Shown in pieces: positions 4,041 to 35,062 of a DNA stretch of 41,043 nucleotides. Under the pieces are notes generated by a model. The model searched no databases. It had not been told where the DNA came from and saw nothing but the letters and a program-made list of their open reading frames with translations. This stretch comes from an uncultured bacterium. Its GTDB lineage: Bacteria > Cyanobacteriota > Vampirovibrionia > Gastranaerophilales > Gastranaerophilaceae. Within the stretch, counting starts at the first letter, position 1. Every line of letters starts with the position of its first letter. The stretch lies in contig CASEYP010000033.1 in NCBI GenBank assembly GCA_949292185.1, positions 1 through 41,043 on the forward strand. Direction: 5' to 3'. A program made the translations under genes and the position numbers.

Positions 4041-4307
4041 CAATTCCTTAACCCAAAATTTGCCTAAATTCTCTCTTTCTAAATTCTCTTCATTTCGCTA
4101 AATCGCGCGCTGTGCGCATATTTACACCATATAAAATAGCGCTAAGCCTTGCTATGACTGGTAAAATTGGAGAGGGCGGACACGTGAGCAAGAGGCTCAT
4201 TTTATAGGCCCTATAAACACAAGAATTTCCCTGTTTTTGACAAAATACAGTGATTTTCTATTTGCTTCCAACCTCCAAACCTAGAATTAGCAACGGTTAA
4301 AACCTAA

Positions 4308-13124: not shown

Positions 13125-13652
13125 TGTATCAATGAGATAAAATTGTTTTCAGATATTCTAAGTAACTTGAGTATTATAATTGCGGCAATTATCGCTTGTA
13201 CGACTTTCAAATTTAAACTTGGTGTTGATGAAAGAAAATTATATTTAGATAATGCCAATAAAGTACGAGATGTGCTTGGTTTTGTATATAGAGAAGGTAA
13301 AATTGATGATGCAAATTTAGGTAAAATTGGTATTGCTTTTGAAGAAGCTTCTTTATATTTGAATAAGGATATAGTTGATTTTATAGATGAAATTCGTGAA
13401 TCTTTAATACGATTGTTTTGTATTCAACTTGAATTAACGAATTTGCCAGTAGGAGAAAAACGTTCTAAACTTTGTGAAGAAATGGGTGATGTTCTTAAAA
13501 AATTAGGAGATTACTCCAAAGATTCTACTATGATATATAGAAGGCATATTGTTTCAGAACCATTAGAAGTTTTCAATTCGGTTAAAAAGAAACTCAATAA
13601 CTTCAAAAAAGAGAAAATACAAGATATAAAAAGCGGGAGAAAAAATCAATGA
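13122..13652 (+). CDS. membrane-anchored protein embedded in the hsd operon
   Basis: The start at ATG 13122, one base after the hsdM stop, is preferred over 13104 because GGGGGTG lies just upstream. The result is 176 residues. An N-terminal hydrophobic segment (LSNLSIIIAAIIACTTF, about residues 12-28) is followed by a soluble helical domain (KLYLDNANKVRDVLGFV...). The design is one membrane anchor and a cytoplasmic helical domain. The family is not recognised. Its stop overlaps the next ATG (ATGA, 13649-13652), so the two are probably made together. Confidence 0.7.
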   Translation: MCINEIKLFSDILSNLSIIIAAIIACTTFKFKLGVDERKLYLDNANKVRDVLGFVYREGKIDDANLGKIGIAFEEASLYLNKDIVDFIDEIRESLIRLFCIQLELTNLPVGEKRSKLCEEMGDVLKKLGDYSKDSTMIYRRHIVSEPLEVFNSVKKKLNNFKKEKIQDIKSGRKNQ

Positions 13653-14725: not shown

Positions 14726-14729
14726 GATG
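14704..14729 (+). repeat. junction repeat 2
   Basis: CTTGGACGAGTTGGAGGTGT followed by AAGATG. It spans the end of the HEPN gene, its stop and the next start codon, and is the closest relative of the junction at 13099-13124. Confidence 0.6.
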
Positions 14730-15527
14730 AATTTAGCTAACATAAATACTTGTTTTAAAATTTTATGTTCATATATTGAGAAAATCGCTATAATTATTGT
14801 AGGCTTATTTTTGTTATTATATTTGATTATTTCTTTTATAAAAAAGCTAACAAAAAATACTACTAAGGCTGAAGATATTGAGAAAGTTGAAGATTTTTTG
14901 ATTGATAAAGGAAAAAAGGTCTGCGAATTAGCGCATCCAATTAGTACCGTTAAATATATTTTAGAAAAATTTGAAGAAAAAAAACAAAAAATATTTCTGC
15001 AGGAAGTTCTTTATGGGTTGAAAAATGTCGATATCAAAACTCTCAATCGACACAAGTCATTACAACGCTTATATAAATCTGTTCAAGTTATTGCCAAAGC
15101 TATGACACAGGATAAACTCAATCGTTTCAAAAATTTGACTATCAATGGCATAATTAACCAAAATAGTTTATCTGATGATAACTATGATTTATTCGTTAGA
15201 TTAACAGATACATTGGTAGATATGGAATATATCTATTTATATACTTTTGCAAAACATATTCCAATAGAAATTTCAAGAGATAATACAGAATCAACAAGAG
15301 CGGCTTTAAACGATAGAAAGAAAAAAGCAGAACGAGAATTACAAGAACAATATGGGATAAGTGATTCTAATCTTAATTTTATAAGAAATTCACTTGCAGG
15401 TTATGGATTAGTCAATTTAGCTGCAGCCTTTAGTGGATTAGCTTTCAACGGCTTATCTGATATTGCGTATAAATATATTGATTTTGTACAAGGGAATCAA
15501 CAAAATTCGAATGAGTTGGGAGCGTAA
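14727..15527 (+). CDS. second membrane-anchored protein embedded in the hsd operon
   Basis: The start at ATG 14727, preceded by GGAGGTG, gives 266 residues. A strong transmembrane helix (IAIIIVGLFLLLYLIISFI, about 20-38) is followed by a charged, helical cytoplasmic region. That region includes TRAALNDRKKKAERELQEQY, likely coiled coil. Near the C-terminus there is a Gly/Ala-rich hydrophobic patch (SLAGYGLVNLAAAFSGLAF). No family is recognised. The protein ends in NSNELGA, and its last bases again supply the next gene's ribosome site. It could be a membrane sensor or effector coupled to the restriction complex. Confidence 0.7.
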   Translation: MNLANINTCFKILCSYIEKIAIIIVGLFLLLYLIISFIKKLTKNTTKAEDIEKVEDFLIDKGKKVCELAHPISTVKYILEKFEEKKQKIFLQEVLYGLKNVDIKTLNRHKSLQRLYKSVQVIAKAMTQDKLNRFKNLTINGIINQNSLSDDNYDLFVRLTDTLVDMEYIYLYTFAKHIPIEISRDNTESTRAALNDRKKKAERELQEQYGISDSNLNFIRNSLAGYGLVNLAAAFSGLAFNGLSDIAYKYIDFVQGNQQNSNELGA

Positions 15528-15531
15528 GATG
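15506..15531 (+). repeat. junction repeat 3
   Basis: TTCGAATGAGTTGGGAGCGT followed by AAGATG. It shares GAGTTGG and GTAAGATG with junction 2, with 7 of 26 mismatches. It spans the stop of the second membrane-anchored gene and the start of the next gene. Confidence 0.5.
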
Positions 15532-16311
15532 GGCAAAAATGGAGGATTAATTAAATTTGGTGCTTATGAACACATAAAAGCTTTTTATGAAAAAGGTGAA
15601 ATGTATTTTAATACTTTTAAATGGTTCAAGGATTTAGAAGCAACAGGAGATGGACGTGCAGATAAAAATGAATATTGTTCACTTCATTACGCGGCAGATA
15701 ATTTAGGAGAGCATAAATTTAGATTTGAATTATATCCAGAAGGACGCCATGAAGAAGCTATAGAGCTAAATAAAGAAAATGGGCTTATTAGTCTAACAAT
15801 AGACTTTGGGGATGATAAAGAATACACGCATTTATATTCTTTTAGTTGTCTAAAAATGAATGACGTAATGCAAAATGATTTGATTATTAGCACACGGAAT
15901 TTTGCCCCAACAAAAGATTATGCAGTAGTAATTTATGATATTAATGCCTTTTTAGATAAATTTACCAAAGCAATGAAAGAAAAATATAAACTTGGCTTCA
16001 AGGCTACAACCATAGAATATGTCGATAAAAATACATATTCTGGAGAAATGGGAGCTTTTAGGAAGTTTAATGATTTTGCATATCAAAATGAATATAGAAT
16101 TGCAATTAATTTTAATTCTTTAGAACCACAAAAAATATATATTGGGTCTTTAAAGGATATTGCAAGCAAACCTATGAATAAAAAAGAATTCTACCAAATG
16201 CCACTTAAAATACAACATAAAAATGATGTTGGGGATGTTATTGGTACAACAATCATAAGTAATAAAAGTGCATTGGATGAAATCGAAAAAGAGGAGGCTA
16301 TCCAATGTTGA
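15529..16311 (+). CDS. DUF2971-like protein embedded in the hsd operon
   Basis: The start at ATG 15529, one base after the previous stop, gives 260 residues. The opening LIKFGAYEHIKAFYEKGEMY, with YFNTFKWFKDLE just after, the central SFSCLKMND, and the late FRKFNDFAYQNEYRIAI follow the plan of DUF2971 proteins (lyFs..., CFS..., yE.EyRi). The match is by eye and uncertain. DUF2971 proteins occur in many defence neighbourhoods; their biochemistry is unclear. The gene overlaps the hsdS start by 7 bases, and its GAGGAGG serves hsdS. No membrane segment is present. Confidence 0.6.
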   Translation: MGKNGGLIKFGAYEHIKAFYEKGEMYFNTFKWFKDLEATGDGRADKNEYCSLHYAADNLGEHKFRFELYPEGRHEEAIELNKENGLISLTIDFGDDKEYTHLYSFSCLKMNDVMQNDLIISTRNFAPTKDYAVVIYDINAFLDKFTKAMKEKYKLGFKATTIEYVDKNTYSGEMGAFRKFNDFAYQNEYRIAINFNSLEPQKIYIGSLKDIASKPMNKKEFYQMPLKIQHKNDVGDVIGTTIISNKSALDEIEKEEAIQC

Positions 16312-17604: not shown

Positions 17605-17922
17605 ATGGCATTGAATATTTTTGAAAAACGTATCAAGGCTTGGAATGAAAAATATCCACCCCTTGCCCCTGAAGTCCTACGTAAAATTAACAAGCTTGTT
17701 GAACAATATGACAAAAATCAACAAGTAGAAAAAGATTCTAAAGTTCTATCAATAACTGACGGGACAAAATTAGTCAGAGAATTTAAAGGTCGAAGATATA
17801 CCGTGCTTGTTTTACAAGACGGTTATGAGTTCAACGGTTCCAAGTATAAAAGTCTTTCTGCTGTTGCTAATAAAATTACAGGAACTCGTTGGAATGGTAA
17901 GAAATTTTTTGGAGTGGCATAA
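17605..17922 (+). CDS. DUF2924 protein, recombinase partner
   Basis: This 105-residue protein matches DUF2924: GTKLVREFKGRRYTVLVLQD at about residues 50-69, followed by GYEFNGSKYKSLSAVANKIT and GTRWNGKKFFGV. The family is usually found directly upstream of a serine recombinase, as here: its stop overlaps the recombinase start (TAATG). Its exact role is not established; an accessory DNA-binding or directionality function is plausible. GAGG lies 7 bases before the ATG. Confidence 0.88.
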   Translation: MALNIFEKRIKAWNEKYPPLAPEVLRKINKLVEQYDKNQQVEKDSKVLSITDGTKLVREFKGRRYTVLVLQDGYEFNGSKYKSLSAVANKITGTRWNGKKFFGVA

Positions 17923-19502
17923 TGGCAAAGAAAATCAGATGTGCAATTTATACTAGAAAATCAACAGAAGAAGGACTTGAACAAGATTTTAATTCTCTTG
18001 ATGCACAAAGAGAAGCTTGCGAATCCTATATAAAATCTCAAAAACACGAAGGTTGGAGTCTTTTAACTAAAAAATACGATGATGGCGGATATTCTGGCGG
18101 AACAATGGATCGTCCGGCATTTAAACAACTTTTGCAAGATATTGAAAATGATGAAATTGATATTGTTGTAGTCTATAAAGTTGATAGGTTAACGCGTTCT
18201 TTAATGAATTTTTCAAAGATTATTGAGATTTTAGACAAGCACAATGCCTCATTTGTTTCCATAACCCAGCATTTTAATACAACAACTTCTATGGGGCGAT
18301 TAACGCTTAATATTTTGCTATCATTTGCGCAGTTTGAAAGAGAAGTTACAGGAGAACGAATCCGAGATAAATTTGAAGCTTCAAGAAAAAAAGGGCTTTG
18401 GGTTAATGGTGCTACACCTTATGGGTACACGAAAGATGAACACCACATTCTACAACCTCAGCAACCTTTTGCAGATAACGTTAAATTCATTTTTGAAGAA
18501 TATCTTAAAGTTAAAAATGTTATTAAGCTAAAAGAGAGCCTTAATCAAAAAGGGATTCTTTCAAGAACAGGAAAACCATTTCCAAAATCAAATTTGTATC
18601 GAATGCTCGCTAACAAAGTTTATTTAGGCAAAATACCTCACAAAAACAAGGTTTATGATGCTCAACATTCTCCGATTGTTTCAGAAGAATTGTTTAATGC
18701 TGTTCAAAATCTGCTACTTTTAAATGCCACAGAACGCAAACATAGGACAAATGCAAAAGTTGGAACTCTGTTATCAGGATTACTTTATGATGATAAAGGT
18801 AACCTTATGTCTCCGACTTACAGCAAAAGCGGTAACAAGCTATACCAATATTATATTAGCCAAGCACTGAAAGACCCAAGCAGATGCGAGCGAGGTGATA
18901 TTACCAAAATTTCAGCAGGTGAAATTGAAAAGTATGTAAAATATGATTTGACAAAACTTTTGCAAGATACATTATTTATCCAAAAATATTTAGAAAATTA
19001 TTCAATCGAACAACAAACCAGTATTTTAAATACAATGCACGAATTTTGTCCTGATAAAGTATTTATTAGAACCGTTATAAAAAGGGTTGATTTGAACTTA
19101 AATTTAATCAAAATCAGCTACGATATAAATTATATAATCCAATATTTTGCAACGCTGGCATTTAATGCAAAATTTACATACACTCAAGAAGATGAACAGA
19201 TTCACACAAGAGAGCAAAATGTCAGAATATCGTTAACCCCGCAAAAGCAAAATAAAATTATTATCCCTGGGAAAGCTAATTATGATATGAAACTTATTCA
19301 GGCAATAGTAAAAAGCTTTTGGTATAACAAACTTGGAGCCGAAAGACGACTACCTCTAGAAGCGCGAAATGGCAATAATAAAAGATTGCGCAAGCTAAGA
19401 TTTTTACCACCAGAAATTATAGAAAGCATAATGAACGGCACCCAAGATCCAGAGTTGAATGTGAAAAAGCTTATTGCAATAGCCGATAAATATGTCAACT
19501 AA
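17922..19502 (+). CDS. large serine recombinase (site-specific integrase)
   Basis: This 526-residue protein has the resolvase catalytic domain at the N-terminus. The nucleophile Ser14 lies in YTRKSTEE. Also visible are YDDGGYSGGTMDRPAF (about 52-67), KVDRLTRS (86-93), and NILLSFAQFEREVTGERIRD (about 129-148). A recombinase domain follows (NQKGILSRTGKPFPKSNLYR), then a zinc-ribbon-like region without obvious Cys pairs. The C-terminus (PPEIIESIMNGTQDP...) recurs as a fragment at 27172-27258. It is the probable integrase of the island or of a nested element. A strong terminator follows. Confidence 0.93.
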   Translation: MAKKIRCAIYTRKSTEEGLEQDFNSLDAQREACESYIKSQKHEGWSLLTKKYDDGGYSGGTMDRPAFKQLLQDIENDEIDIVVVYKVDRLTRSLMNFSKIIEILDKHNASFVSITQHFNTTTSMGRLTLNILLSFAQFEREVTGERIRDKFEASRKKGLWVNGATPYGYTKDEHHILQPQQPFADNVKFIFEEYLKVKNVIKLKESLNQKGILSRTGKPFPKSNLYRMLANKVYLGKIPHKNKVYDAQHSPIVSEELFNAVQNLLLLNATERKHRTNAKVGTLLSGLLYDDKGNLMSPTYSKSGNKLYQYYISQALKDPSRCERGDITKISAGEIEKYVKYDLTKLLQDTLFIQKYLENYSIEQQTSILNTMHEFCPDKVFIRTVIKRVDLNLNLIKISYDINYIIQYFATLAFNAKFTYTQEDEQIHTREQNVRISLTPQKQNKIIIPGKANYDMKLIQAIVKSFWYNKLGAERRLPLEARNGNNKRLRKLRFLPPEIIESIMNGTQDPELNVKKLIAIADKYVN

Positions 19503-21340: not shown

Positions 21341-21583
21341 GCTTTATCTCCTTTTTTTGCCTACGCTTTAATATAAAAATTTGTGTATCAGGAGAAAAAC
21401 AAAATTTTCTTAAAGAATATTTTTTTAACTTGGCAACACAAATAAAAGCTGTTTTATTATTTAAAACAGCTCAAATTCCTCTGAATAAACAACTCATAAA
21501 CAGAACAAATTTCTATAGATATACCCAAACTCACTCATAATATTTTAAAAAATTTTGCACAAAATATTGCACACAACAAGTGA
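21341..21583. other. short non-coding gap between methyltransferase and XRE genes
   Basis: About 240 bp, AT-rich. It should contain the methyltransferase promoter and the end of the XRE transcript. I see no RNA gene and no strong hairpin. Confidence 0.3.
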
Positions 21584-21907
21584 CTAAAAATATTTTTGCA
21601 AAGTATTGATCATATCTACATAAATATCAAGTTGTTTTTCTGATGAAGTATTAATAATTTTTTGCAAATATACCTTTTGCTCGGAAAGCTCATTCTCACT
21701 TTTTATTCCAAAATCTTTCATAGAAAGATCTAAAACATCAATCATCTTTAAAAAATTATCCAACGCAGGATAATTTTTACCTGTTTCAATTTTACTTAAA
21801 TGCTTTTCACTAATTCCAATAATTTCTGCAAGCTGTGCTTGCTTTAAGCCTTTCTTTTTTCGAGCATTTTGAAGGATTTGCGCTATATATTTTTTGTCAA
21901 ATTCCAT
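21584..21907 (-). CDS. XRE-family (Cro/CI-type) transcriptional regulator
   Basis: From ATG 21907 this is 107 residues; an upstream in-frame TTG (21952) would add 15 but is less likely. The helix-turn-helix is at about residues 8-50: ILQNARKKKGLKQAQLAEII, GISEKHLSKIETGKNYP. A helical C-terminal tail follows (NELSEQKVYLQKIINTSSEK). It probably controls the methyltransferase operon, the divergent secreted-protein operon, or its own promoter. Its stop region is AT-rich, with no clear terminator. Confidence 0.88.
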   Translation of the reverse strand: MEFDKKYIAQILQNARKKKGLKQAQLAEIIGISEKHLSKIETGKNYPALDNFLKMIDVLDLSMKDFGIKSENELSEQKVYLQKIINTSSEKQLDIYVDMINTLQKYF

Positions 21908-21952
21908 TTCAATATACCTGTTACCTTTTCTAAAATAAACTACTTTTAACAA

Positions 21953-22260
21953 GTTCTAAACATTACACGTAACGGTTAAAAGCATAAGTATTCACATGTA
22001 TTGACTACTTTAGCTTATAGTTATTAATAGCCACATATATAGGATTGTTTGAATAAGTAACCTATTTAATAACTGGGGTACTATAAATTTTATTTATACT
22101 TTACTCAATACAGTAATTATATATGACGAATTATGTAGTTAAAAGTCACATATATTGATTATAACTTTATTTTGTTTTAAATTACATGTAGTTACAAATA
22201 TTACTTAATACAAAAAGTAAATATATGTAATTATGGTAGTTATTTTTAAGGAGAAAGATT
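21953..22260. promoter_or_regulatory. divergent AT-rich control region with a repeated TCACATRTATTGA motif
   Basis: About 300 bp between the XRE gene and the secreted operon. TCACATGTATTGACTA (21992-22007) and TCACATATATTGATTA (22146-22161) are near-identical and both contain a -35-like hexamer (TTGACT, TTGATT). The second is followed after 17 bases by TAAATT (22178-22183), a plausible -10. The repeated motif could be the XRE operator. AAGGAG precedes the ATG at 22261. Confidence 0.4.
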
Positions 22261-23505
22261 ATGAAAAAGTTATTACTAACCTGCTGTATAGCATCCGGTA
22301 TGGTTTTTACAAGTATTACTGCAGTAAATGCTATTGAACTAAAAACTCCAGCAATTACAGGATTAAAAACTACTCCTACTTTAACAGCAAAAACTTCAGC
22401 AAAAGCTTCCGCACAAAATGCTGCAAATGAAAAATACAAGAAAGAATATCAAGCTAAACTAGCAGAACAATCAAAAAAATTAGAAGCAGTAAAAGCTTAT
22501 GATAAAACAGCAAGATTAGAATTAGCAAAAGTTATTTTATCAAATGAACAATACAATGAAATCAAAAACTTAAAAGGCGAAGAACAAGATACAAAACTTA
22601 ATGAAGCTTTAGTTACTACCCTAAGTGATGAAGCTTTTGTTCAAACATATGCCGAATACAATGCAACACAAAAAGCAGCGTATTATAATGCAGCTCAAAA
22701 AGTACAAATTGCTGACAATAGATATAAAAATGTATCAAATGAAATTACAGCACCATTAAAAGCAATTGTTGATGGTGACGTTAGTGCAATATCTTCAAAA
22801 GATGAATTAAAAAATGCTGCAGGATTAATTCTTGGTATAAAAAAGAATTTAGGAACGAATGCAGCAGTAAAAAAAGCTATACGAAAAGCAAATAAGGCTA
22901 ATGATATTATTGTAACAGTTCCTGAAACTGAAAGAGTTATATATCCAGAAACTGGTGTTGTTGGTAGTATCAATAAACAACTTGCTGATGTTGACCACTC
23001 TGTAAAAGGAGCAAGTCACACTTTAGCAAACATTCTTTATACAAAAGAAGATTTAAATTCTTTAAATGCAATACAAAATAACAACGATTTATCTGCAGCA
23101 GAAAAATCTGCAGAATATAAAAAACTGGCAAAAGAAACCATTGATAAATCTTTAGCTGATGGTAGCCTACAAAATCGTTTTGATAAAATGACTCCAGCTC
23201 AGAAAAAAGAATACACAGATGCAGTACAAAAGATTATGGATGGTGCAGCTTCATATACAGGAATTGCTCTTGCATGTACAAAACTTGGATTTAACATTTC
23301 AAGAAATCCATTAATTGCAGCACCTTTAGTATTTGAAGTTGGAGCATTGAAAGATACAGGATCACTTGTAAAAGAAAGTGCAGGGGATTTAACTAAATCA
23401 ATTAGCCAACTTAAAAAAATAAATAAAGCAGTTGGTATTACAATAGAACAACCAACTACAGCATCTACAAGTAAAATAAAACCTGTAAATTTCTTAAAAA
23501 AATAA
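22261..23505 (+). CDS. secreted helical protein, unknown function
   Basis: This 414-residue protein has a Sec signal peptide (MKKLLLTCCIASGMVFTSIT...AVNA, about 24 residues). An Ala/Lys/Asn-rich, strongly helical mature part follows, with coiled-coil-like stretches (EYQAKLAEQSKKLEAVKAYD; NAAGLILGIKKNLGTNAAVK). Near residues 325-365 there is a mildly hydrophobic segment. No catalytic motif or family is recognised. It is the first gene of a three-gene same-strand run of exported proteins. The hairpin at 23521-23553 may attenuate transcription into the next gene. Confidence 0.7.
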   Translation: MKKLLLTCCIASGMVFTSITAVNAIELKTPAITGLKTTPTLTAKTSAKASAQNAANEKYKKEYQAKLAEQSKKLEAVKAYDKTARLELAKVILSNEQYNEIKNLKGEEQDTKLNEALVTTLSDEAFVQTYAEYNATQKAAYYNAAQKVQIADNRYKNVSNEITAPLKAIVDGDVSAISSKDELKNAAGLILGIKKNLGTNAAVKKAIRKANKANDIIVTVPETERVIYPETGVVGSINKQLADVDHSVKGASHTLANILYTKEDLNSLNAIQNNNDLSAAEKSAEYKKLAKETIDKSLADGSLQNRFDKMTPAQKKEYTDAVQKIMDGAASYTGIALACTKLGFNISRNPLIAAPLVFEVGALKDTGSLVKESAGDLTKSISQLKKINKAVGITIEQPTTASTSKIKPVNFLKK

Positions 23506-23520
23506 TTAATTAACAGAACT

Positions 23521-23553
23521 AAAAGAGCAATATAAATATTATATTGCTCTTTT
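23521..23553 (+). terminator. intrinsic terminator or attenuator between secreted genes
   Basis: A perfect 15-bp stem AAAAGAGCAATATAA / TTATATTGCTCTTTT with a 3-base loop and a T-run to 23555. The ribosome site of the next gene follows at once, so some read-through is likely. Confidence 0.85.
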
Positions 23554-23568
23554 TTATAAGGAGAAAGT

Positions 23569-25170
23569 ATGAAAAAAGTTTTATCAATTATTTTAGGGAT
23601 TGGTTTTGTTATAAATTCATATTTTATAAGTGCATCTGCTCTTGAAGTAACTACACAAGGTCGAGGAATTGCACCTCTTAGTGGATATGATATTGAAGCT
23701 ACTCGCACGCAAGAAGATATTTATATGAATAAAAAAGCAAACGAATCAAAAACAGAATTTATGCACACTCAACAAATCAAAGAAGCTAGTAGACAAGCGG
23801 AAAAAAGAAAAAAAGAAGATAAACGTCTTTCAGGAGCTGTAAGAACAGCCGTTGTAACTCTAGCCAGAGAACGAGCAGACCACAATGCTATAGATAATTT
23901 AGTAAATGATATTTTAGGAGTAAATGCCACCAAAAATCCACAAGTAGCAGCTAAATTAAATGAGATTTATTCTCAAGTAGATGTGTTTACGACTAACAAA
24001 ACTTATAAAGGTGAAGTAATTGATAACAATTATGTAGCCAACGTAGTTATGACAATAGATGAAACAGCATTTAGAAAACGTATTTCAAACCTAGGTATTG
24101 CTTTACATGCACTTGATGTAAAATCTCAAAATATACTTGTGGTTATGGACGAGTTTTTCACAACTCCAAGTGATATGCATACAAATGTTTTAACAAAAGA
24201 AGTAACAACATACGATTACAAATACAATGAAAGAGATAAAGAAACTGTAAAAGCTTCTTATAAAGATTCAAATAAATCAAACAGTTCAGCAGGATACGGA
24301 AATTGGTATGGTGCAGGCTATGGTAAATCCTCAGATAGTAGTTCAACTTCTGCCAATTATGGAAATTATGTAGATTATTCAAAAAATCAAAGTGAATTTT
24401 TCCAAAATGTAAAAGAATATGCACCAAAAAATCCAAAAGCTCAAAATATTAACTTAACATTACCTGAATTACAAAAAGCTTTTAAAAATTCCGGAATTAC
24501 AGTTATTGATAATTCAATGTTTAAAAGCAAATATTTTAAAGGTAAACCTATATCCTCAGATCAATTATCAAACTCTGAAGAATTAGTTAAATATGTAAAA
24601 TATGCACAAACTGATGCTAAAGCAGATTTCTTTGCAATAGGGATTTCTTATATTACAGACAATGGAGTAGATGCAAGCACTGGAATGAGAGCAAGTAGCG
24701 GTGTTGTAAATATGGTTATATACTCAACTCAAGATGGTAAAGCTATTGCAAGTGGAACATTCCAAGCTTCAGCAGTAGGGGATACTGCAGACACAGCACG
24801 ACGTGCCGTTGCAACTAAACTTGGTACAGGACTTGGTAACGAATTAGCTAAACAAATTCAAGATGATTATAAAGACCGTACAATGTATGGTACGGAATAT
24901 ACTTTAGAAGTTAAAGGTAATTTCTTACCTATAGAAAGAGTTAATATTACTAAAGCTCTAAAAACAGTTGAAGGTATTCAAAATGTTTCTTTAAAATCAT
25001 CAGATAATAACAAATTAGAATATACAGTTAATTATAATGGTTCAGAACCCGTAGGTGACACTATATTTATGCAATTAGTTGATACTTCTGCAAAATTTAA
25101 CAATTACAATTTTACAATCAATCGTGGGCAAATTATTTTTGAACCAATCAAAGGAAATGAAAGTTTATGA
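23569..25170 (+). CDS. secreted protein, possibly CsgG/LPP20-like, unknown function
   Basis: This 533-residue protein has a signal peptide (MKKVLSIILGIGFVINSYF...SASA). An N-terminal helical, charged part is followed by a low-complexity Ser/Gly/Tyr segment (about 240-262: SSAGYGNWYGAGYGKSSDSS). The middle domain reads ADFFAIGISYITDNG...VNMVIYSTQDGKAIASGTFQ and TADTARRAVATKLGTGLGNE. This resembles exported proteins of the CsgG/LPP20/FlgT type by eye. A C-terminal alpha/beta domain (EYTLEVKGNFLPIERVNITK) ends it. The stop overlaps the next ATG (ATGA). It is probably part of an envelope complex; this is low-confidence inference. Confidence 0.65.
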   Translation: MKKVLSIILGIGFVINSYFISASALEVTTQGRGIAPLSGYDIEATRTQEDIYMNKKANESKTEFMHTQQIKEASRQAEKRKKEDKRLSGAVRTAVVTLARERADHNAIDNLVNDILGVNATKNPQVAAKLNEIYSQVDVFTTNKTYKGEVIDNNYVANVVMTIDETAFRKRISNLGIALHALDVKSQNILVVMDEFFTTPSDMHTNVLTKEVTTYDYKYNERDKETVKASYKDSNKSNSSAGYGNWYGAGYGKSSDSSSTSANYGNYVDYSKNQSEFFQNVKEYAPKNPKAQNINLTLPELQKAFKNSGITVIDNSMFKSKYFKGKPISSDQLSNSEELVKYVKYAQTDAKADFFAIGISYITDNGVDASTGMRASSGVVNMVIYSTQDGKAIASGTFQASAVGDTADTARRAVATKLGTGLGNELAKQIQDDYKDRTMYGTEYTLEVKGNFLPIERVNITKALKTVEGIQNVSLKSSDNNKLEYTVNYNGSEPVGDTIFMQLVDTSAKFNNYNFTINRGQIIFEPIKGNESL

Positions 25171-27116
25171 AACAATTAATTCTTTTTTTATTAGGGGCAT
25201 TACTTCTATGCCCCCCTTTTTCTTATGGTAGTGAAACTAATTCAATTAAAACATATCCTGTTAAAGGTTTATTTTTATCAAATGGAGCTACAAGTGATGA
25301 ATTTAGAACCTTATATGACAATAAAGTAAATAAAGATATGTTTATTGGTAAATTTATCCAAGAATACAAAAGCAATTTTGCAAATTCAATAGATGAAATT
25401 AATGATTTAAATAAATATAAAACACTTGTCAGTTATATTAGTATTCCTAGGGTATCAAAATATATCGATAAAAGACCCAATGGAGATATAATCTATTTAC
25501 CATTAACTTTAAGTTTAAACTTTGTGAATATTATTAGTGGTGAAACAATATATTCAAACTCTAAAACAATATATGGTTCAACACTAACTGACGACTATCA
25601 AACAATCAGTAATATTTATAAAGAAAATTATAATAAAGCTATAGACAATTTGATAACAGAATCCAAAGCAAACTTTCATCCATTTGAAATTCCAGTAAAA
25701 GTCATAGATAATTATAAAAACTTATACATTCTAGACAAAGGATCTGAATCTGGCATAGCCGAAGATGATGAATTATTCGATGAAAATTCAAACCAACTCT
25801 CTATCATATACTCAACTGTTGGTTATTCTATTGGTAAAAACGAATTTGGATACAATATTGCACCTAATACAACATTTATAAAACAAGCAAATAATGGTGG
25901 TATAAATCAAATAAAAAAACCAAAAGTTCTACTAATAAATGATGTTGCAAATGAGTCAATTTATGATTTGTTATCAAGTAGCCTTGGCGAAGATTCAAAA
26001 ATAAATCTTCTAACAATAAATCCTACTTTTAATACAATGAGAAGCACAGTTTTAAAACTTAATAACTTAACATCAATAGAAAATGAACAACTTCAAAGAA
26101 ATTTACCGGATTACTTTTTATATTTCACATTTACAAAACCAATAAAAGCAAGTATAACCTTAAATAGAACAGGTTTAAAAAATGAATATTTTAATATGAT
26201 GGCCTGCGGTATAATTTTTGATAAATCAGGGAAAATTGTATTCTCACAATGCGCTGATGAAACTTCTGATGGTAGAGCTAGTAACAAACAATATGGAGCA
26301 TCTGATCACGATAGAATAGAAATTTTATCAAAAAATTTAATCGGTAAACTTTCTGAAAAAATTAATGAACAAATTAATTTTAAAGAATTTGAATTCAAAA
26401 TCAAAGATATAAACAATAACGAAATCATACTTGAAGATAAAACTGAGAACTTAAGAGAAGGTAATAGCATTACACTCTACAAAAAAATAAAAGCTGATAA
26501 TAATGAATATTTAATACCAATGTATAAATATAATGTTATAGAAGTTTCAAATGGATTAGCAAAGTGTCAATTTGATTTTCCGTATCTTGATAATGCTGAC
26601 AAAGCATCAAAATCAAATATTGCAAAATCTACAATAATTGTTTCTCCAAATGGTTCTAATTTTTATCAAGTTTCTACAGATAATATGGCTATGGACGGTA
26701 ACGAAATCGAACTTACCAACTTAGATAAATTTACATTACCAATTTTAGGTGCTGGACTTAAAAAACCTTTAGCTCTAGAAAATAGTATTATTACTAATAA
26801 AGTGGCAATGATAAATAATTCAGCAATGTTTAAAACTAACTTAAAAATCTCAGAAAATAATTCTGATCTAATAATAAAACCTATCTACAAAATCAATCTT
26901 AAAAAACATAAAGTAGAAGGTTACACACAAATCAACACTTATAAAATACTTGCAGGAGTAGAAACATATAAGAATAATAAAAAAATCACGCAAAAAACAC
27001 TTACCCAAGAAGTTACAATAACATTACCATTGAAAAACTACCAAGAACTTTTAATGTATGAACTTCAAAAAGCAATATATCCATTATTACAACTAAATGT
27101 TTCTGCAATTAAATAA
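25167..27116 (+). CDS. secreted protein, possibly FlgT-like, unknown function
   Basis: This 649-residue protein has a signal peptide (MKQLILFLLGALLLCPPFSYG). The mature protein is beta-rich. Two regions resemble short FlgT C-terminal-type barrels: LYILDKGSESGIAEDDELFD near 191-210, and IKDINNNEIILEDKTENLRE near 412-431. Between them is a domain starting KPKVLLINDVANESIYDLLS. It is coupled to the upstream gene by ATGA overlap. No flagellar gene is nearby, so any FlgT-like role is doubtful. The pair more likely works in an outer-envelope assembly. Confidence 0.65.
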   Translation: MKQLILFLLGALLLCPPFSYGSETNSIKTYPVKGLFLSNGATSDEFRTLYDNKVNKDMFIGKFIQEYKSNFANSIDEINDLNKYKTLVSYISIPRVSKYIDKRPNGDIIYLPLTLSLNFVNIISGETIYSNSKTIYGSTLTDDYQTISNIYKENYNKAIDNLITESKANFHPFEIPVKVIDNYKNLYILDKGSESGIAEDDELFDENSNQLSIIYSTVGYSIGKNEFGYNIAPNTTFIKQANNGGINQIKKPKVLLINDVANESIYDLLSSSLGEDSKINLLTINPTFNTMRSTVLKLNNLTSIENEQLQRNLPDYFLYFTFTKPIKASITLNRTGLKNEYFNMMACGIIFDKSGKIVFSQCADETSDGRASNKQYGASDHDRIEILSKNLIGKLSEKINEQINFKEFEFKIKDINNNEIILEDKTENLREGNSITLYKKIKADNNEYLIPMYKYNVIEVSNGLAKCQFDFPYLDNADKASKSNIAKSTIIVSPNGSNFYQVSTDNMAMDGNEIELTNLDKFTLPILGAGLKKPLALENSIITNKVAMINNSAMFKTNLKISENNSDLIIKPIYKINLKKHKVEGYTQINTYKILAGVETYKNNKKITQKTLTQEVTITLPLKNYQELLMYELQKAIYPLLQLNVSAIK

Positions 27117-27136
27117 AAACATAAAAAAAAGAACCA

Positions 27137-27170
27137 AAAGAGTTATAGTACCAAATCGCTATAACTCTTT
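27137..27170 (+). terminator. hairpin after the secreted operon
   Basis: A 12-bp perfect stem AAAGAGTTATAG / CTATAACTCTTT with a 10-base loop. The T-run is short, so termination may be incomplete. The recombinase-derived fragment begins directly after it. Confidence 0.65.
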
Positions 27171-27171
27171 A

Positions 27172-27258
27172 ATTATAGAAAGCATAATGAACGGAACCCA
27201 AGACCCTGATTTGAATGTAAAAAAACTTATTGAAATAGCAGATAAGTGTTGTAAGTAG
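27172..27258 (+). pseudogene. 3' remnant of a second serine recombinase gene
   Basis: The 29 codons including the stop read IIESIMNGTQDPDLNVKKLI, then EIADKCCK. They align without gaps to the end of the intact recombinase (19416-19502, IIESIMNGTQDPELNVKKLI...). The DNA differs at about 15 of 87 positions and most differences are silent. This is therefore a diverged relative that once was under selection, not a fresh copy. Homology stops abruptly at the terminator of the secreted operon. It marks the scar of an earlier element. Confidence 0.88.
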
Positions 27259-27326: not shown

Positions 27327-28697
27327 ATGAAAAATAAATTACTAAATGAAGTAATAGAATACTATTTAAATAGTAAAGATTACAACTTATATCCAATTAC
27401 AAAATTATATGAACAAAATTTAGAAATAGAAAATATAAAAAATATAATTATTGAATTAATAAAGGATAATATATTGGATTTATATTATTGTAAAACAAAT
27501 TATTTTATAAAAAACTTTGATTTACATATCCCACTAGAAACAAAAATTAACTACATAAATAAATTACCCAATAATTATACCCCACAAATTATAGAAAATA
27601 TAAAAATAGATGAAGAAAATTGTATTCAAATAACTTGTAATGATGAAATACCTCCAATATCATTATTTCCAACACCTACTACAATAAAAAAATATATAAA
27701 AAATAAAGCCCAATATAATAATATAGCACCATTTAATAAAATGTTATTAGAAGGCTCACCACACTTAAAGTTTTTATATTTTAGAATTGACGTACTAAAT
27801 AGATTTATTTATGACCCAAGATATATAGTTTATAATATAGACTATTCTGGAACAATATATTATAGTGTAGATAATATAAAAAAAGAAGAAGATGAAAATA
27901 ATATCTATTTAAGTCATTTTGGATTAGCCTATAATAAAAAAACGAATGAAAATGTAATAACAATATTTCCTCATGACCTAGCAAAGTTATCTCTTAAACA
28001 TCAATATTATTTTTACTCTTATTTATTTGATAACCAAGAAGATTTTATACCAGATATATCATACTATCAAAATGTTATGGGAGAGTTGTCAGAAGGACTA
28101 TCTATTTTTGCTGCATTTTTTGAAGAAATGAAATTAATCAATAAAATGTTTAATACAATATGTGCAAAAAATTTAATAAAAAATATATTTGAATTTACTC
28201 AACAAAATCGTCCTGAATATTTTCATCCCTTTTTAATGCCAACTAAAACAATGTATCATAATTTCTGTAGAACTTTATATAGGCTATTTATTGATAAACT
28301 TGATAAAAATGCAATAATTGAATTTGCAAAAGCAATCGGCATTGAATTAGATACAGACAAAAAAGGTTCAATGTCATTATTACAAGAGTTATTTAATAAA
28401 GGCTTTAAATCATTTAAAAGTAATAACTTAGGTGATGAAATTATTGATATTTGGAAAACAACAATACATGAATATCGTAATAGAATATCTCATTCATTTG
28501 TAGACGATATATACGATATCAATATTTTTAAGGAATACAGATATACAATTAATGAAGCATATAAGTCAATTCGTTTAATTAGGCTTATACTATCAACTAT
28601 TCCTGTAATTAAAAATTCTATAGAAAATAATAAAATTGAAATTTCTGAAGATCTTTATCATGGCAATATAAAAATGCTCTTTGCACCTTTTAAATAA
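27327..28697 (+). CDS. HEPN-like protein, putative abortive-infection factor
   Basis: This 456-residue soluble protein is very rich in Asn, Ile and Lys, lower in GC than its neighbours, a sign of recent transfer. The N-terminal half has no recognised fold. The C-terminal helical region (about 275-440) contains YRNRISHSF, in which RNRISH fits Rx4H, followed by long helices (NEAYKSIRLIRLILSTIP). This suits a HEPN ribonuclease. A stand-alone HEPN gene at the island edge next to ssrA suggests phage defence; there is no adjacent antitoxin. The family is not firmly identified. Confidence 0.6.
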   Translation: MKNKLLNEVIEYYLNSKDYNLYPITKLYEQNLEIENIKNIIIELIKDNILDLYYCKTNYFIKNFDLHIPLETKINYINKLPNNYTPQIIENIKIDEENCIQITCNDEIPPISLFPTPTTIKKYIKNKAQYNNIAPFNKMLLEGSPHLKFLYFRIDVLNRFIYDPRYIVYNIDYSGTIYYSVDNIKKEEDENNIYLSHFGLAYNKKTNENVITIFPHDLAKLSLKHQYYFYSYLFDNQEDFIPDISYYQNVMGELSEGLSIFAAFFEEMKLINKMFNTICAKNLIKNIFEFTQQNRPEYFHPFLMPTKTMYHNFCRTLYRLFIDKLDKNAIIEFAKAIGIELDTDKKGSMSLLQELFNKGFKSFKSNNLGDEIIDIWKTTIHEYRNRISHSFVDDIYDINIFKEYRYTINEAYKSIRLIRLILSTIPVIKNSIENNKIEISEDLYHGNIKMLFAPFK

Positions 28698-28871: not shown

Positions 28872-29271
28872 TGGAGACGGTGGGAGTCGAACCCACGTCC
28901 AAAATGGATCAAAACAGATTTCTACGAGTGTAGGTACTTATTAGCTCAACTAATTCCGGGAAGTATCAAAACCGTTAAACTAGCCCTAGGTTTTATTTGA
29001 AGGAAACTCTAAACCTTTGATAGTTATCTTGATGCTGCTACTATCATCACAACACTGCGTCTTGCATAATTGACCTATAACTCCGGCAAGATGGGAATTA
29101 TAAGTAGCTATTCATTAAAGGACTATGCAGCTAAAGCATAAGCTCTAGAGAAGTCAGCTTCAATTACATTATTTTTAGCATTTAATTTGTTTTGCTCGTT
29201 GATAACCGAGAACAGCGCTCGGACCCGCAACCTATTTTCACCAAACATCCTGTCAAATCCAAAACGTCCCC
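28872..29271 (-). ncRNA. ssrA: transfer-messenger RNA (tmRNA)
   Basis: The 3' part on the minus strand has the T-arm GTGGGTTCGACTCCCAC and acceptor strand CGTCTCC plus discriminator A. The 5' end GGGGACG pairs with it and is followed by the conserved GGATTTGACAGG. Length is about 400 bases, in one piece, and CCA is not encoded. The tag frame ends ALAA-stop (stop at 29123-29125). If the resume codon is GCT at 29177-29179, the tag is AKNNVIEADFSRAYALAA. It rescues stalled ribosomes with SmpB. tmRNA genes are common integration sites, in keeping with the island ending just downstream of its 3' end. Confidence 0.95.
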
Positions 29272-30707: not shown

Positions 30708-31088
30708 TTAGATTTGATCAATTGAAATAGCTTTAACGCCTGCGTATCTTGCTTTGTCCATAAGTTTAACTACTGCACCGTGAGTTGAATTTCCATCAGT
30801 TTGAATTAACAAACCATCCGGATAATTTTTTATTTCATTACTTAATACTGTCCCTAATCTATCCGGTGAAATTTCTTCATTATGAATAAAGTATTTGTCA
30901 TTGTGTGTAACAAAAACGGTTAGTAATTGCGGATCTTTATTAACTTGAGATTGCTCTACATTTTCAGGAACAGTTAAGCTGATACCTTGTTGATCTAATA
31001 ATGGTGCAATAACCATCATAATGATTAGCAATACTAAAAAGATATCTGTTAATGGTGTAATATTAATTTCGTTAAATGTATCTCTCAT
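30708..31088 (-). CDS. exbD: ExbD/TolR-type energy-transduction protein (second copy)
   Basis: This 126-residue protein has one N-terminal membrane helix with the ExbD hallmark: INITPLTDIFLVLLIIMMVI at about residues 8-27, whose Asp couples to the proton motive force. The periplasmic domain ends with NGDGNSTHGAV-like and YAGVKAISI elements (IQTDGNSTHGAVVKLMDKAR). It works with ExbB to energise TonB or Tol. It lies 2 bp after another exbD whose membrane segment is almost the same. It is the last gene of the tonB-exbB-exbD-exbD run. Confidence 0.92.
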   Translation of the reverse strand: MRDTFNEINITPLTDIFLVLLIIMMVIAPLLDQQGISLTVPENVEQSQVNKDPQLLTVFVTHNDKYFIHNEEISPDRLGTVLSNEIKNYPDGLLIQTDGNSTHGAVVKLMDKARYAGVKAISIDQI

Positions 31089-31090
31089 TA

Positions 31091-31558
31091 TTATTCTCCG
31101 TATTCAGGGACTTCTCCCTTAGCATTTTTTTCTAAATTTCTTTGTTCTTTTTTATTTAACGGTTCCCCTGCAACTACCAGTTTTTTATATTCAGCATTTT
31201 GTGCAGCGTTCATAACGTTCATAATTGTTGAACTTTTAATGGCTTTATCGGCTTTTACAACAACTTCAGCTTTTTCAGGATCAGTTTTTGCTGCAATAAG
31301 CTTATCTGTTAATTGAGCATTTTGAATTCTTTCACCATTTACATACATTGTACCGTCTTTTGTTATAGATACTGTAACTTTAGCTTCTTCTATATTTATT
31401 CCGTTGTTAACCTCAGGAACTTCTACCGCATTATCCATTGATTGAAATGAAGGAGCTACAACCATCATAATAATCAACAGTACTAAAAAGATATCTGTTA
31501 ATGGTGTTATGTTTATTTCTGTAAATAATTGTTTTTTCTTTTTTGATGAAAATGCCAT
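31091..31558 (-). CDS. exbD: ExbD/TolR-type energy-transduction protein (first copy)
   Basis: This 155-residue protein has a basic N-terminus (SSKKKKQLF), membrane helix INITPLTDIFLVLLIIMMVV with the functional Asp, and a periplasmic domain (VTVSITKDGTMYVNGERIQN). A charged extra tail follows (NKKEQRNLEKNAKGEVPEYG), absent from the second copy. Two ExbD proteins with one ExbB is a common arrangement and may form a mixed dimer in the ExbB pentamer. Confidence 0.92.
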   Translation of the reverse strand: MAFSSKKKKQLFTEINITPLTDIFLVLLIIMMVVAPSFQSMDNAVEVPEVNNGINIEEAKVTVSITKDGTMYVNGERIQNAQLTDKLIAAKTDPEKAEVVVKADKAIKSSTIMNVMNAAQNAEYKKLVVAGEPLNKKEQRNLEKNAKGEVPEYGE

Positions 31559-31575
31559 TTTTTTTACCCGTTAAA

Positions 31576-32229
31576 TTATAAATTAACTTTTGAAGAAGAA
31601 TATTTAGTTGCTTGTGGCTCAGTTTCAGCATCAACAAAGCTTAAGAATAAAAGTTTGATAAGCTGAAAATCGTCTTCATAGTGTTTAACAATAGATTGGA
31701 ATGAGTTGTAGAAAATAACAGCTACAATAGCAACTCCAAGACCGAATGCTGTAGCGATCAACGCAGAACCAATACCAGAAGCAACAGTAGCTGCCTGGTT
31801 ACCAGCATCTGCTAAGATATTGAATGTTAACAAGATTCTGACAACTGTACCAAACAAACCTAGGAATGGTGCAACACCACCGATTGTACCTAGAATTGTC
31901 AAGTGACTTTCAAGTTTTCTTGTTGCAAGAGCTGCTGAAATATCAAATGATCTTGAAAATCCTTTTTTCTGTTCAGAGAAAATTCTTACAGCTTCTTCTA
32001 TAACTTCACCAATAACACCGCCGCATCTAATTGCAATGTTTTGTGCTGCAGATAAGTCATTTTTTGAAAGTTCTCTGTTTAATTCTCTCATGTAAATAGT
32101 AATATCACGTTGGTTTTTTTGATAAAAAGACCATTTACTGATAACTACGCCTACTACCAATATTGAACATAGAAATATCGGTAATAATACAGGCCAGTCC
32201 ATTTTAATTGACTCTAATAATAATTCCAT
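31576..32229 (-). CDS. exbB: ExbB/TolQ/MotA-type proton channel protein
   Basis: This 217-residue membrane protein has three helices: VLLPIFLCSILVVGVVIS near residues 14-31, then the conserved TILGTIGGVAPFLGLFGTVV (about 112-131) and SALIATAFGLGVAIVAVIFY (about 153-172). The last two match the MotA/TolQ/ExbB domain. It forms the pentameric channel around ExbD. GAGGAT precedes the ATG. It lies 17 bp upstream of the first exbD and follows tonB. Confidence 0.94.
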   Translation of the reverse strand: MELLLESIKMDWPVLLPIFLCSILVVGVVISKWSFYQKNQRDITIYMRELNRELSKNDLSAAQNIAIRCGGVIGEVIEEAVRIFSEQKKGFSRSFDISAALATRKLESHLTILGTIGGVAPFLGLFGTVVRILLTFNILADAGNQAATVASGIGSALIATAFGLGVAIVAVIFYNSFQSIVKHYEDDFQLIKLLFLSFVDAETEPQATKYSSSKVNL

Positions 32230-32263
32230 AGTTTTGTATCCTCATTTTATGTAATAACTTGTC

Positions 32264-33505
32264 TTAATATTTTGTTGCTCCAAATACATTGTAATCAAAC
32301 GTAAATTGGATATCTATACTTGAACCTTTATATTCAGGTGGAAGTGGTCTAAATGGAGCCGCTAAGTGAACTGCATTTATTGCGGCTTTATCTGCATTTT
32401 GTAATCCTGAAGATTTAAATACACTGCAAGATAACAATCTGCCGTCTTTAGCAATTTTGAATAAGAGTACTACACGTTTACTTTCATTTCCTTTAGGAGG
32501 ATCCCAATTCATTTTAATTTTTCTTTGTAGTTCTCTCATATATGGCCCGAAATCAGGTTCTCTGATTGCGTCAATTCCCGGACGTCCTCCGCCACCGCCA
32601 GGATTACCTCCTCCAGAGCCTGAGCCTCCTGAGCTGTAACCTGATCCGGATCTGCCTGAGCCAGTGCCTGATCCTGATGATGCAAGTCTAGATCCAGAAG
32701 AGCTACCTCCTCCAACAGGAGCTAAAGATGGGTTTGGTGCGTATGTTCCGCTACCTCTTGTTCCTCCTGATTTTGAAGAACCTGAACCGCTTATAGGACC
32801 TGTTGCATATTGACCGGCTTTTGTTCCCCCAGGTGGAACCGGAACTTTAAACGGTGAAGATGAAGGTCTTTGTACCGTTTTTGGTGTCATTGTAGGTCTT
32901 ATAGATGGCCTTGCTGTTGGCGGTTGTGGCCTTGCAGCTTGAGGTTTTGGAATTTCTTGTTGTACTTGAGGTGATGGTTGTACATGTTTTTGCTGTGTTG
33001 TTGCTCTTGGCGGGGTTTTTGTTACTGTTTTTTTCGGAGCAACTGATTGCGCAATTTTATCTACAAATGACTGCTTCTTTGGTGCCGGTGCCGGTGATTG
33101 TGATGCCGGTTTTGGCTTTGAGGCAGGTTGCGCTGATGGAAGTGAAACAGGTTTTTTAGGATCGTTTATTCCGCCAGTTCTTGAGTTTCTGTCTGCCCTG
33201 AATCTTGTGTTTTTATTTACTGGAGTTTGTTCTTTATCTACTAATACAAACTCGATATCATTAACTTTAGGTTTAGGTTTGTCAAATAAAGTTAAATGTA
33301 TTCCAAGTAGGGCTAATACTGTTAGTATAAGCCATAATATTAGCATACTTGCCGGATGTAAAATGGCAGATATTGTTATACCTTTTTTTAAGGAGATAGA
33401 TTCTCTATCTTCTCTTGTTACTGCAGGCATTTTATATTCGACTTTGTTTCTAGACTCCCCAGTCCTTGGATCTCTTATTTCAGTGTATTTATTTAGTATT
33501 GACAT
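32264..33505 (-). CDS. tonB: TonB-family energy transducer
   Basis: From ATG 33505 (AGGGAAAG just upstream; a TTG at 33523 is less likely) this is 413 residues. A cytoplasmic N-tail leads to one membrane helix (ASMLILWLILTVLALLGIHL). A long periplasmic linker follows, rich first in Pro/Lys/Gln, then in Gly/Ser (about 235-320), unusually extended. The C-terminal TonB domain shows YMRELQRKIKMNWDPP and VVLLFKIAKDGRLLSCSVFK, followed by SSGLQNADKAAINAV. It passes ExbB/ExbD energy to outer-membrane receptors, none of which is encoded here. First gene of the operon. Confidence 0.9.
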   Translation of the reverse strand: MSILNKYTEIRDPRTGESRNKVEYKMPAVTREDRESISLKKGITISAILHPASMLILWLILTVLALLGIHLTLFDKPKPKVNDIEFVLVDKEQTPVNKNTRFRADRNSRTGGINDPKKPVSLPSAQPASKPKPASQSPAPAPKKQSFVDKIAQSVAPKKTVTKTPPRATTQQKHVQPSPQVQQEIPKPQAARPQPPTARPSIRPTMTPKTVQRPSSSPFKVPVPPGGTKAGQYATGPISGSGSSKSGGTRGSGTYAPNPSLAPVGGGSSSGSRLASSGSGTGSGRSGSGYSSGGSGSGGGNPGGGGGRPGIDAIREPDFGPYMRELQRKIKMNWDPPKGNESKRVVLLFKIAKDGRLLSCSVFKSSGLQNADKAAINAVHLAAPFRPLPPEYKGSSIDIQFTFDYNVFGATKY

Positions 33506-33575
33506 TTCTTTCCCTAACAACAAATATTTTATAATCTTTATTTGTTAATGATTGTATTTTAAAGTTACGATAATA

Positions 33576-34325
33576 TTATTGCCCAAAAGACTGATTTTGG
33601 GTACTGGACGGATTGACGGTAATCGGTTGGGTTAGGACAAGTTCTAGTGCTGCGTTGGCAGGAATTTCTACATCTTCTCCTTTATCCCAAATAGATTTAA
33701 CTAAACCGCCACCAGCTCCAACTGCTGTAGCTAAAGCAGTACCTTTACCAAGGCTTCCTCCTGCTAATGGTGATATAATAACGCCAGCTAATGCTCCAGC
33801 TCCTGCTCCTACGGCTAAGTCTTTTGCATATTCTTTTGTTACATCAAATGTTGTTCCGCCAATAAGTGTTCCTGTATTATCATCAGTTTTTACTACTGCT
33901 GATATTGGAATGTTTAAGCCTGTTGGTGTTATTATTTGATTAAATCTTAATGTTAATTTACCATTCATGCTTCCGTGTTTAGCTTTTGATACTTCTATAA
34001 CAGAACCGTAAATCGTACTTCCTGCAGGAGCTATTCTGTTTCCATTGTAGTAAAAGTCTGAATTTAGGGCCATTGTAACTGTTTGTCCTACAGAAGCTGT
34101 TTCTGAACTTACAGGTGATGTGACTACTGCTCTGAAGGCTTGTCCTGCCGGAACGGTAATAACACTGCCCTTTAGTGTAGTGTTGTTTACTTTATAATTC
34201 TCTTGATTGTAGTAAGCTGGTTGGTATGTTGGTGTTGCTACATTTTCTTGATATGAATAATTCGCAGCAGCGTGTACACAATTCGCTGATAGTAATAATG
34301 CTGTCAGTAAAAATAATTTTTTCAT
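33576..34325 (-). CDS. exported envelope protein, paralogue of its neighbour
   Basis: This 249-residue protein has a signal peptide (MKKLFLLTALLLSANCVHAA). The body shows VPAGQAFRAVVTSPVSSETA and IAPAGSTIYGSVIEVSKAKH, then LTLRFNQIITPTGLNIPISA. A Gly/Ala-rich stretch (AVGAGAGALAGVIISPLAGG, about 172-191) could insert in a membrane or pack as a glycine zipper. The tail is beta-rich. It aligns with the protein at 34410-35027. The family is probably structural in the envelope; function unknown. GAGGG lies upstream of the ATG. Confidence 0.75.
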   Translation of the reverse strand: MKKLFLLTALLLSANCVHAAANYSYQENVATPTYQPAYYNQENYKVNNTTLKGSVITVPAGQAFRAVVTSPVSSETASVGQTVTMALNSDFYYNGNRIAPAGSTIYGSVIEVSKAKHGSMNGKLTLRFNQIITPTGLNIPISAVVKTDDNTGTLIGGTTFDVTKEYAKDLAVGAGAGALAGVIISPLAGGSLGKGTALATAVGAGGGLVKSIWDKGEDVEIPANAALELVLTQPITVNPSSTQNQSFGQ

Positions 34326-34409
34326 TACATATCCCTCATCTTCTGAATGACTTTACTCTATTTTATTGTACTACATATATAATTTTTGTCAATTTAAATT
34401 AATCCTTTT

Positions 34410-35027
34410 TTATTCAGTTAATGTATGGGTTATAGGTGTTGGAGCTGTTAATATTATAATTTGTTGATCTCCTGCCGGAACTTTAGTATGTGTACCCATA
34501 CTACGTTTGCCTCCAGGTCTTATTTGTAAAGTTGCGCCCCTGTGGTTCCAAGCAATTCCCTGAAATTTACTTTGATAATGAGGAACTTTTACCCATTCTG
34601 CAGGAGGTGTTAATTCTCCACCTATTAGGTTATCGTTTGATGTGTATACATATCCTCTGGTTGGAATCTCAAATCCGTCTGGCATTATTATTTTAGTTAT
34701 TTTAATCTTCATTGCAGCATTGGTACCAATAACAGGTTCGTGAATTTTTTCGATGTATCCATAAAATTCTGTGTTTCTTGGTAAAATGTTTGTTTCATAC
34801 ATAAAAAGGTCATTTGTTGCTACAAATTTTACTTTGTAACCTTCAGGACAGGTTTCTGTTGAAATTTCTTGTGTTGTTAATACAGGGATAAATGTTCCTG
34901 CCGGAAGTGTGATTTCATCATATTTTCGCATTTCAAGCTGAACATCAGGTAAATCTTCTGCTTTTGCAAAATTGGTATTTGTTAGTATTATAAATCCTGC
35001 TAGTATTATTGCTAAAAAGTATTTCAT
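34410..35027 (-). CDS. exported envelope protein, paralogue of its neighbour
   Basis: This 205-residue protein has a signal peptide (MKYFLAIILAGFIILTNTNF...AKA). LPAGTFIPVLTTQEISTE, NTEFYGYIEKIHEP and KIKITKIIMPDGFEIPTRGY line up with VPAGQAFRAVVTSPVSSE, GSTIYGSVIEVSKA and LTLRFNQIITPTGLNIPISA of its neighbour. It lacks the Gly/Ala-rich segment. No ribosome site is visible, and a good promoter ends 7 bases before the ATG, so a leaderless mRNA is likely. Confidence 0.75.
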   Translation of the reverse strand: MKYFLAIILAGFIILTNTNFAKAEDLPDVQLEMRKYDEITLPAGTFIPVLTTQEISTETCPEGYKVKFVATNDLFMYETNILPRNTEFYGYIEKIHEPVIGTNAAMKIKITKIIMPDGFEIPTRGYVYTSNDNLIGGELTPPAEWVKVPHYQSKFQGIAWNHRGATLQIRPGGKRSMGTHTKVPAGDQQIIILTAPTPITHTLTE

Positions 35028-35034
35028 ATGAGTT

Positions 35035-35062
35035 ATTATAACAGTTTTTCTTAAGATAGCAA
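35035..35062 (-). promoter_or_regulatory. promoter placing the start at the ATG of the 205-residue gene
   Basis: TTGCTA (35057-35062), a 16-base spacer and TATAAT (35035-35040) on the minus strand, with 7 bases to ATG 35027. The -35 lies inside the end of the dus gene. Confidence 0.5.

Follow-up and report, generated by a model that had tools for sequence, protein, structure and literature searches.

The window examined here (the whole stretch of DNA analysed, 41,043 nucleotides long, which is contig 33 of a 1.89-Mb, 96.7% complete genome, G000) carries three large consecutive genes, hereafter A, B and C, together with a divergent regulator, in an island next to the tmRNA gene. The closest database relatives of this gut bacterium are Gastranaerophilales / Melainabacteria MAGs of the Cyanobacteriota. 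The features of this locus are the following.

4168..4173, no strand assigned: left junction core TGGAGA (attL side), exactly where the alignment of the tmRNA flank of genome G006 with window positions 3942-4173 ends
17605..19502, + strand: DUF2924 protein (2.1e-27) and large serine recombinase, the likely island integrase
21584..21952, - strand: divergent Cro/CI (XRE) type regulator of the module (Pfam HTH_3, 3.4e-14)
22261..23505, + strand: gene A, 414 aa, exported (signal-like N-terminus), predicted helical
23521..23553, + strand: terminator-like hairpin between A and B (-15.5 kcal/mol, z -5.2, 0/200 shuffles as good)
23569..25170, + strand: gene B, 533 aa, exported; domains read from AlphaFold, Foldseek and structural alignment
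25167..27116, + strand: gene C, 649 aa, exported; domains read from AlphaFold, Foldseek and structural alignment
27137..27170, + strand: terminator-like hairpin 3' of C, found after C in G000, G010, G003 and G001
27327..28697, + strand: gene D, variable cargo between the module and the tmRNA gene (Pfam HEPN_MAE_28990, E 0.0017, below cut-off)
28872..28877, no strand assigned: right junction core TGGAGA, the 3' end of the tmRNA gene (attR side)
28872..29271, - strand: tmRNA gene ssrA, the integration target (ARAGORN; Rfam RF00023, 9.5e-45)

The original prediction had placed three exported open reading frames here, and all three are indeed present on the + strand at the positions given. A, B and C each begin with a hydrophobic, signal-like N-terminal segment and have no further strong hydrophobic span. 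Conservation in ten genomes and purifying selection (dN/dS 0.05-0.28 in comparison with four relatives) show that they are real genes. Coupling by ATGA, which had been predicted for the whole operon, was found between B and C (25167-25170, a 4-nt overlap kept in 9/10 loci according to the gene maps), but not between A and B, which are separated by 63 nt. This gap contains the internal hairpin that had also been predicted, a 15-bp stem followed by U residues, which occurs in nine of the ten loci with its structure kept and its sequence divergent (examples: AAAGAGCAATATA, AAAGAGGCAGTATT, AAGGCGGGAT, AGTGCGTAGTTATT); G251 lacks it. The hairpin resembles an intrinsic terminator within an operon and, acting as a leaky terminator, would allow A to be made in larger amounts than B and C. 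In the G251 copy, C is split into two open reading frames of 511 and 103 aa (L011 9539-11471), and this copy may be broken. A Cro/CI-type HTH_3 regulator adjoins the module in 8/10 loci and may control its promoter.

Gene A is predicted to be helical, from its sequence and alignment. In the window it is an internal duplication of the single-domain form of other lineages, the helical domain being present twice (hhalign E 1.2e-6 to 5.7e-8 for the internal repeat). Length varies most in A between lineages, and of the three families A is the one seen most frequently by itself, with A-like genes lacking B in G133 and, more weakly, in G245, G159, G041 and G046. Such occurrences apart from B, in a small number of genomes (G133, G245), mean that A may act alone. 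In G133, the A-like exported protein lies near a Cro/CI-type regulator, without B or C (L089 8099-9919).

Island, target site and spread of the three genes

The location of the genes inside an island, as originally proposed, was established from an empty site. In G006, which belongs to the same genus, the counterpart of window 3942-4173 (90% identity) joins the tmRNA gene directly. Window positions 4174-28877 are therefore a 24.7-kb insertion at the tmRNA 3' end, that is, an ssrA-targeted genomic island with an identifiable empty site. The two ends have only the 6-bp TGGAGA in common. At the tmRNA loci of G067, G009 and G003 (on its tmRNA contig), likeness to the window on this side ends at the end of the tmRNA gene. 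Restriction is represented in the island by McrBC-like genes and a type I system; it also contains a DNA methylase and the CcrB-like large serine recombinase with its DUF2924 partner. The recombinase matches the Pfam families Resolvase (2.4e-38) and Recombinase (2.1e-15), and its top NCBIfam match is CcrB (1.1e-44, under the CcrB cut-off). A precedent for this combination of target and recombinase is offered by the ssrA islands of Dehalococcoides (DsiB), which also lie at the 3' end of the tmRNA gene and carry a CcrB-like large serine recombinase; they differ in having a six-gene integration module and 20-bp repeats, where the present island has a 6-bp core, a DUF2924 partner and other cargo (PMC3146451). 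A different gene occupies the position of gene D beside the tmRNA gene in G010, which identifies this end of the island as a cargo slot.

Several minor observations were made on these islands. A second insertion in G006, of 3.6 kb, has copies of the tmRNA flank on either side (L071 7646-12103), which makes the 3' end of the tmRNA gene a serial insertion site. Matches to the 41-base tmRNA 3' end elsewhere in genomes of the genus were considered as remote att sites and were dropped, as many of them may reflect tRNA T-arm similarity. The pairing of a DUF2924 gene with a large serine recombinase behind it recurs (window 17605-19502; L015 7135-9052 and 16494-18570) and is present two times within 12 kb in G001. 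Four open reading frames without Pfam match lie between the type I hsdM and hsdS genes (window 13104-16311); two of them, 14676-15527 and 15463-16311, overlap although their frames differ and could be the pieces of one broken gene. Outside the island, the - strand at 30708-38189 encodes two ExbD-like proteins, one MotA/ExbB-like, one TonB/TolA-like and one large TPR protein, and this cluster is an envelope energising system.

The trio itself is accessory. Its genes might have been core genes of the lineage, found in all relatives without any island, yet C occurs in only 5/46 genomes of the genus, and B in 6/59 relatives, 8/241 genomes of the order and 7/382 of the class. DNA common to the window and G003 is limited to 21463-27177, and that common to the window and G010 to 22046-27247 plus the tmRNA end. 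The surroundings of the module differ between genomes, and the gene 3' of C may be HEPN-like, unassigned, a small secreted protein or a CHAT protein. A, B and C were found together in 10/10 Gastranaerophilales loci and in all four plasmids examined, and A adjoins B in each of the eight order-level carriers of B. A plasmid search with B returned five records of 72,556, and the order B-C-A was observed on plasmids of Caballeronia grimmiae, Cupriavidus campinensis, Psychrobacter urativorans and Novosphingobium humi, preceded in two of the four by a small lipoprotein gene with a TPR-like match. Profile-profile comparison of the window proteins with their plasmid counterparts gave 98.2% and 2.9e-14 for A, 100% and 1.1e-65 for B, and 100% and 2.6e-55 for C. 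The trio is thus an accessory, horizontally transferred set that reaches distant bacteria and plasmids beyond Gastranaerophilales. The three genes, for which conserved co-occurrence had been the proposed check, are kept together across phyla while their order changes, which is strong evidence for a joint function.

B also had weak phylum-level matches. In G430, from another Cyanobacteriota family, B-like and A-like genes form one operon (95.8% and 82.5%, respectively). They follow a 441-aa overlapping gene, which stands in the place of C but was not counted as C, as it has no profile similarity to it. G410 has two LPP20/CsgG-like genes without A. Relatives of the trio were sought in phage records, IMG/VR viral contigs and E. 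coli genomes, with none found, and B had no match among the BFVD viral structures at E 0.001; the viral and phage searches being empty, a phage origin is without support. No description of the trio was found in the literature searched.

Fold resemblance of B and C to the flagellar ring protein FlgT

Sequence comparison of A, B and C with Pfam, NCBIfam, PADLOC, PHROGs and PDB sequences yielded no convincing hit, with no Pfam or NCBIfam match to the FlgT_N/M/C or LPP20 models up to E 0.1; plasmid B and C had no FlgT_N/M/C or LPP20 sequence match either. The resemblance lies in the fold, as seen in AlphaFold models of moderate confidence (mean pLDDT 63-67, pTM about 0.45). In its model, built from seven sequences (mean pLDDT 66.5), B appears to comprise an LPP20/FlgT_N-like domain, a TolB/CsgG-like domain and a small C-terminal alpha/beta domain. 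The TolB/CsgG-like domain carries, after its first strand, a long Ser/Tyr/Asn-rich insert (residues ~200-289) of variable length that is unstructured in the model. The closest Foldseek matches of B were the LPHT ring entry 8z5n (E 8.6e-8) and then FlgT 3w1e (2e-6), and structural alignment (VIA) placed FlgT 1-267 on B 25-435 with Z 11.2. For C (mean pLDDT 62.9), the same two entries came first (3.2e-9 and 8.6e-9), FlgT 93-354 being placed on C 25-241 at Z 10.3, within VIA values of 10.0-10.3. In the model, residues 25-241 of C resemble the middle and C-terminal domains of FlgT, the rest of the model consisting of less certain beta-rich and alpha/beta segments. No internal repeats were detected in C by profile comparison, although the fold suggests repeated modules. 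Whole-length TM-scores are low, with a large overall rmsd, and B and C each cover only two of the three FlgT domains; given these scores and the moderate confidence of the models, the resemblance has to be read domain by domain. The original guesses of a CsgG/LPP20-like protein for B and a FlgT-like protein for C were thus close, since B does combine LPP20/FlgT_N-like and TolB/CsgG-like domains and C is FlgT-like; yet both match FlgT best.

The TolB-like fold is widespread and present in many unrelated periplasmic proteins. That domain of B aligns with PelC, TolB and CsgG with Z of about 9-12 (PelC, Z 11.7). PelC, TolB, LptE, DUF799 (GNA1162) and other TolB-like periplasmic proteins have this alpha/beta domain in common with B, but those named are single-domain proteins or combine it otherwise and act in other pathways, so that the likeness is one of fold only. 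From a mechanistic point of view, such a core could point to a curli-like system, in which B would act as a CsgG-like pore for export, C would assist it and A would be the secreted substrate. B 184-442 aligns with CsgG over the TolB-like core fold (VIA Z 8.6-10.8), as do residues 24-177 of C (Z up to 11.4); A is exported, probably made in excess and variable in length; and the insert of about 90 residues in B might form a barrel. The two pore hairpins of CsgG, however, sit later in its fold, and the insert of B, which follows the first strand, is unlike them. B, which has no cysteine at all, lacks a lipobox, A has no curlin-type repeats, and FlgT, PelC and TolB, not curli pores, match equally well or better. 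A CsgG-type pore is made less likely by the absence from B of any cysteine that could be lipidated and by the different position of its only long insert, and we regard this curli-like arrangement as quite doubtful. The export reading that had been put forward together with an envelope complex is weak, B showing no clear counterpart of the CsgG pore hairpins. An operon of three hypothetical lipoproteins, one of them CsgG-like, has been reported on the G19 islands of Acinetobacter baumannii, and it can be likened to the present trio by description only (PMC3224125).

FlgT-like proteins are familiar as parts of the flagellar motor, and in Vibrio, FlgT and FlgO make a ring at the outer membrane (PMC6504787). 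Like the Vibrio H ring (FlgO, FlgP, FlgT), the module consists of a few exported proteins with LPP20/FlgT_N, TolB-like and FlgT C-like domains, and B and C both have FlgT as their closest fold. Unlike it, the module is mobile, has its own regulator, gives no sequence-family match and contains two FlgT-like proteins with differing domain sets plus the helical protein A; moreover, most of its carriers have no flagellum. G000 and seven of the nine other carriers lack the P-ring gene flgI, which the remaining two have. The trio might still be the remnant or accessory of a flagellar H ring, as its best folds are FlgT and the LPHT ring, and some Gastranaerophilales keep complete flagellar gene sets while many have lost their flagella (PMC4040986). 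Against this, the trio is mobile, occurs on plasmids, has no recognised flagellar genes adjoining it, lacks a Pfam FlgT match and is under purifying selection where flgI is absent, as it is in 8/10 carriers. Such an origin is already largely refuted and seems to us very improbable. Because flgI is absent in most carriers, the FlgT-like proteins must serve something else there. A secretin was found in nine of the ten carriers, consistent with the presence of an outer membrane.

A possible envelope complex and its defence neighbourhood

The explanation we favour overall, to which we give about even chances, is that the mobile trio and its regulator build a complex of the cell envelope, with a FlgT-like assembly of B and C and with A as its helical partner. 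The three genes and the divergent regulator would form a self-contained, horizontally transferred module, moving as cargo of tmRNA-targeted islands, with their serine recombinase, and of plasmids. B and C, as exported fold-level relatives of the H-ring protein FlgT, would most likely come together as a ring or scaffold in the periplasm, beneath the outer membrane and without a flagellum; A may join this assembly or be handled by it. The benefit would probably be a modification or protection of the envelope, the leading guess being the exclusion of phages or other mobile elements. Established by observation are the export signals, the conservation and mobility of the trio, the hairpin, the likeness in fold and the lack of flgI; the ring, its stoichiometry, its location and its benefit are inferred.

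Links to defence genes had been suggested as a check and do exist, recognised defence genes being close to the module in 5/10 loci. In the window, these are the type I restriction-modification and McrBC genes. A complete GajA-GajB (Gabija) pair lies 0.7 kb from the module in G105 and 8 kb from it in G044, PDC-S37 is a neighbour in G014, and a BovA-like CHAT protein, a SIR2-STAND protein and PDC-S19 are neighbours in G001. Among the genes scanned in G003, G251, G082, G093 and G010, no recognised defence neighbour was found. The ten carriers have three OLD-TOPRIM genes of GajA length, two of them beside the module, a comparison that was chosen after seeing the loci. One plasmid copy of the trio adjoins ter genes. 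Mobile islands gather defence genes anyway, and since such linkage is expected for any cargo of a defence island, it supports a defence role and does not show it. That the trio defends the cell is nevertheless plausible from this gene context.

A sharper version of the favoured reading is that the trio acts at the envelope as a so far uncharacterised system for phage defence or entry exclusion, one that would block adsorption or DNA entry and that the Cro/CI-type regulator would hold down until needed. The defence genes near half of the loci, the OLD-TOPRIM genes beside the module and the ter genes of the plasmid copy all speak for it. On the other hand, none of A, B and C has a PADLOC match up to E 0.01, no enzyme or toxin domain was found in them, five loci have no recognised defence neighbour, and the Gabija comparison was picked with the data in view, on islands that collect such genes in any case. 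We consider this sharper version possible, if on balance unlikely.

The broader claim, that the trio represents a new and widely dispersed mobile system in which flagellum-free FlgT-like ring proteins form an outer-membrane complex protecting against phages or mobile DNA, is one to which we attach a low probability. A compact mobile trio of this architecture in bacteria without flagella, common to Cyanobacteriota and Pseudomonadota, would show that the outer-ring module has a life of its own. Its recurrence in defence-rich islands makes envelope-based protection directly testable with a three-gene construct.

It should also be noted that, beside the module of G105, a run of genes for exported proteins (L068 12088-18067) resembles a chaperone-usher pilus cluster by size and order.
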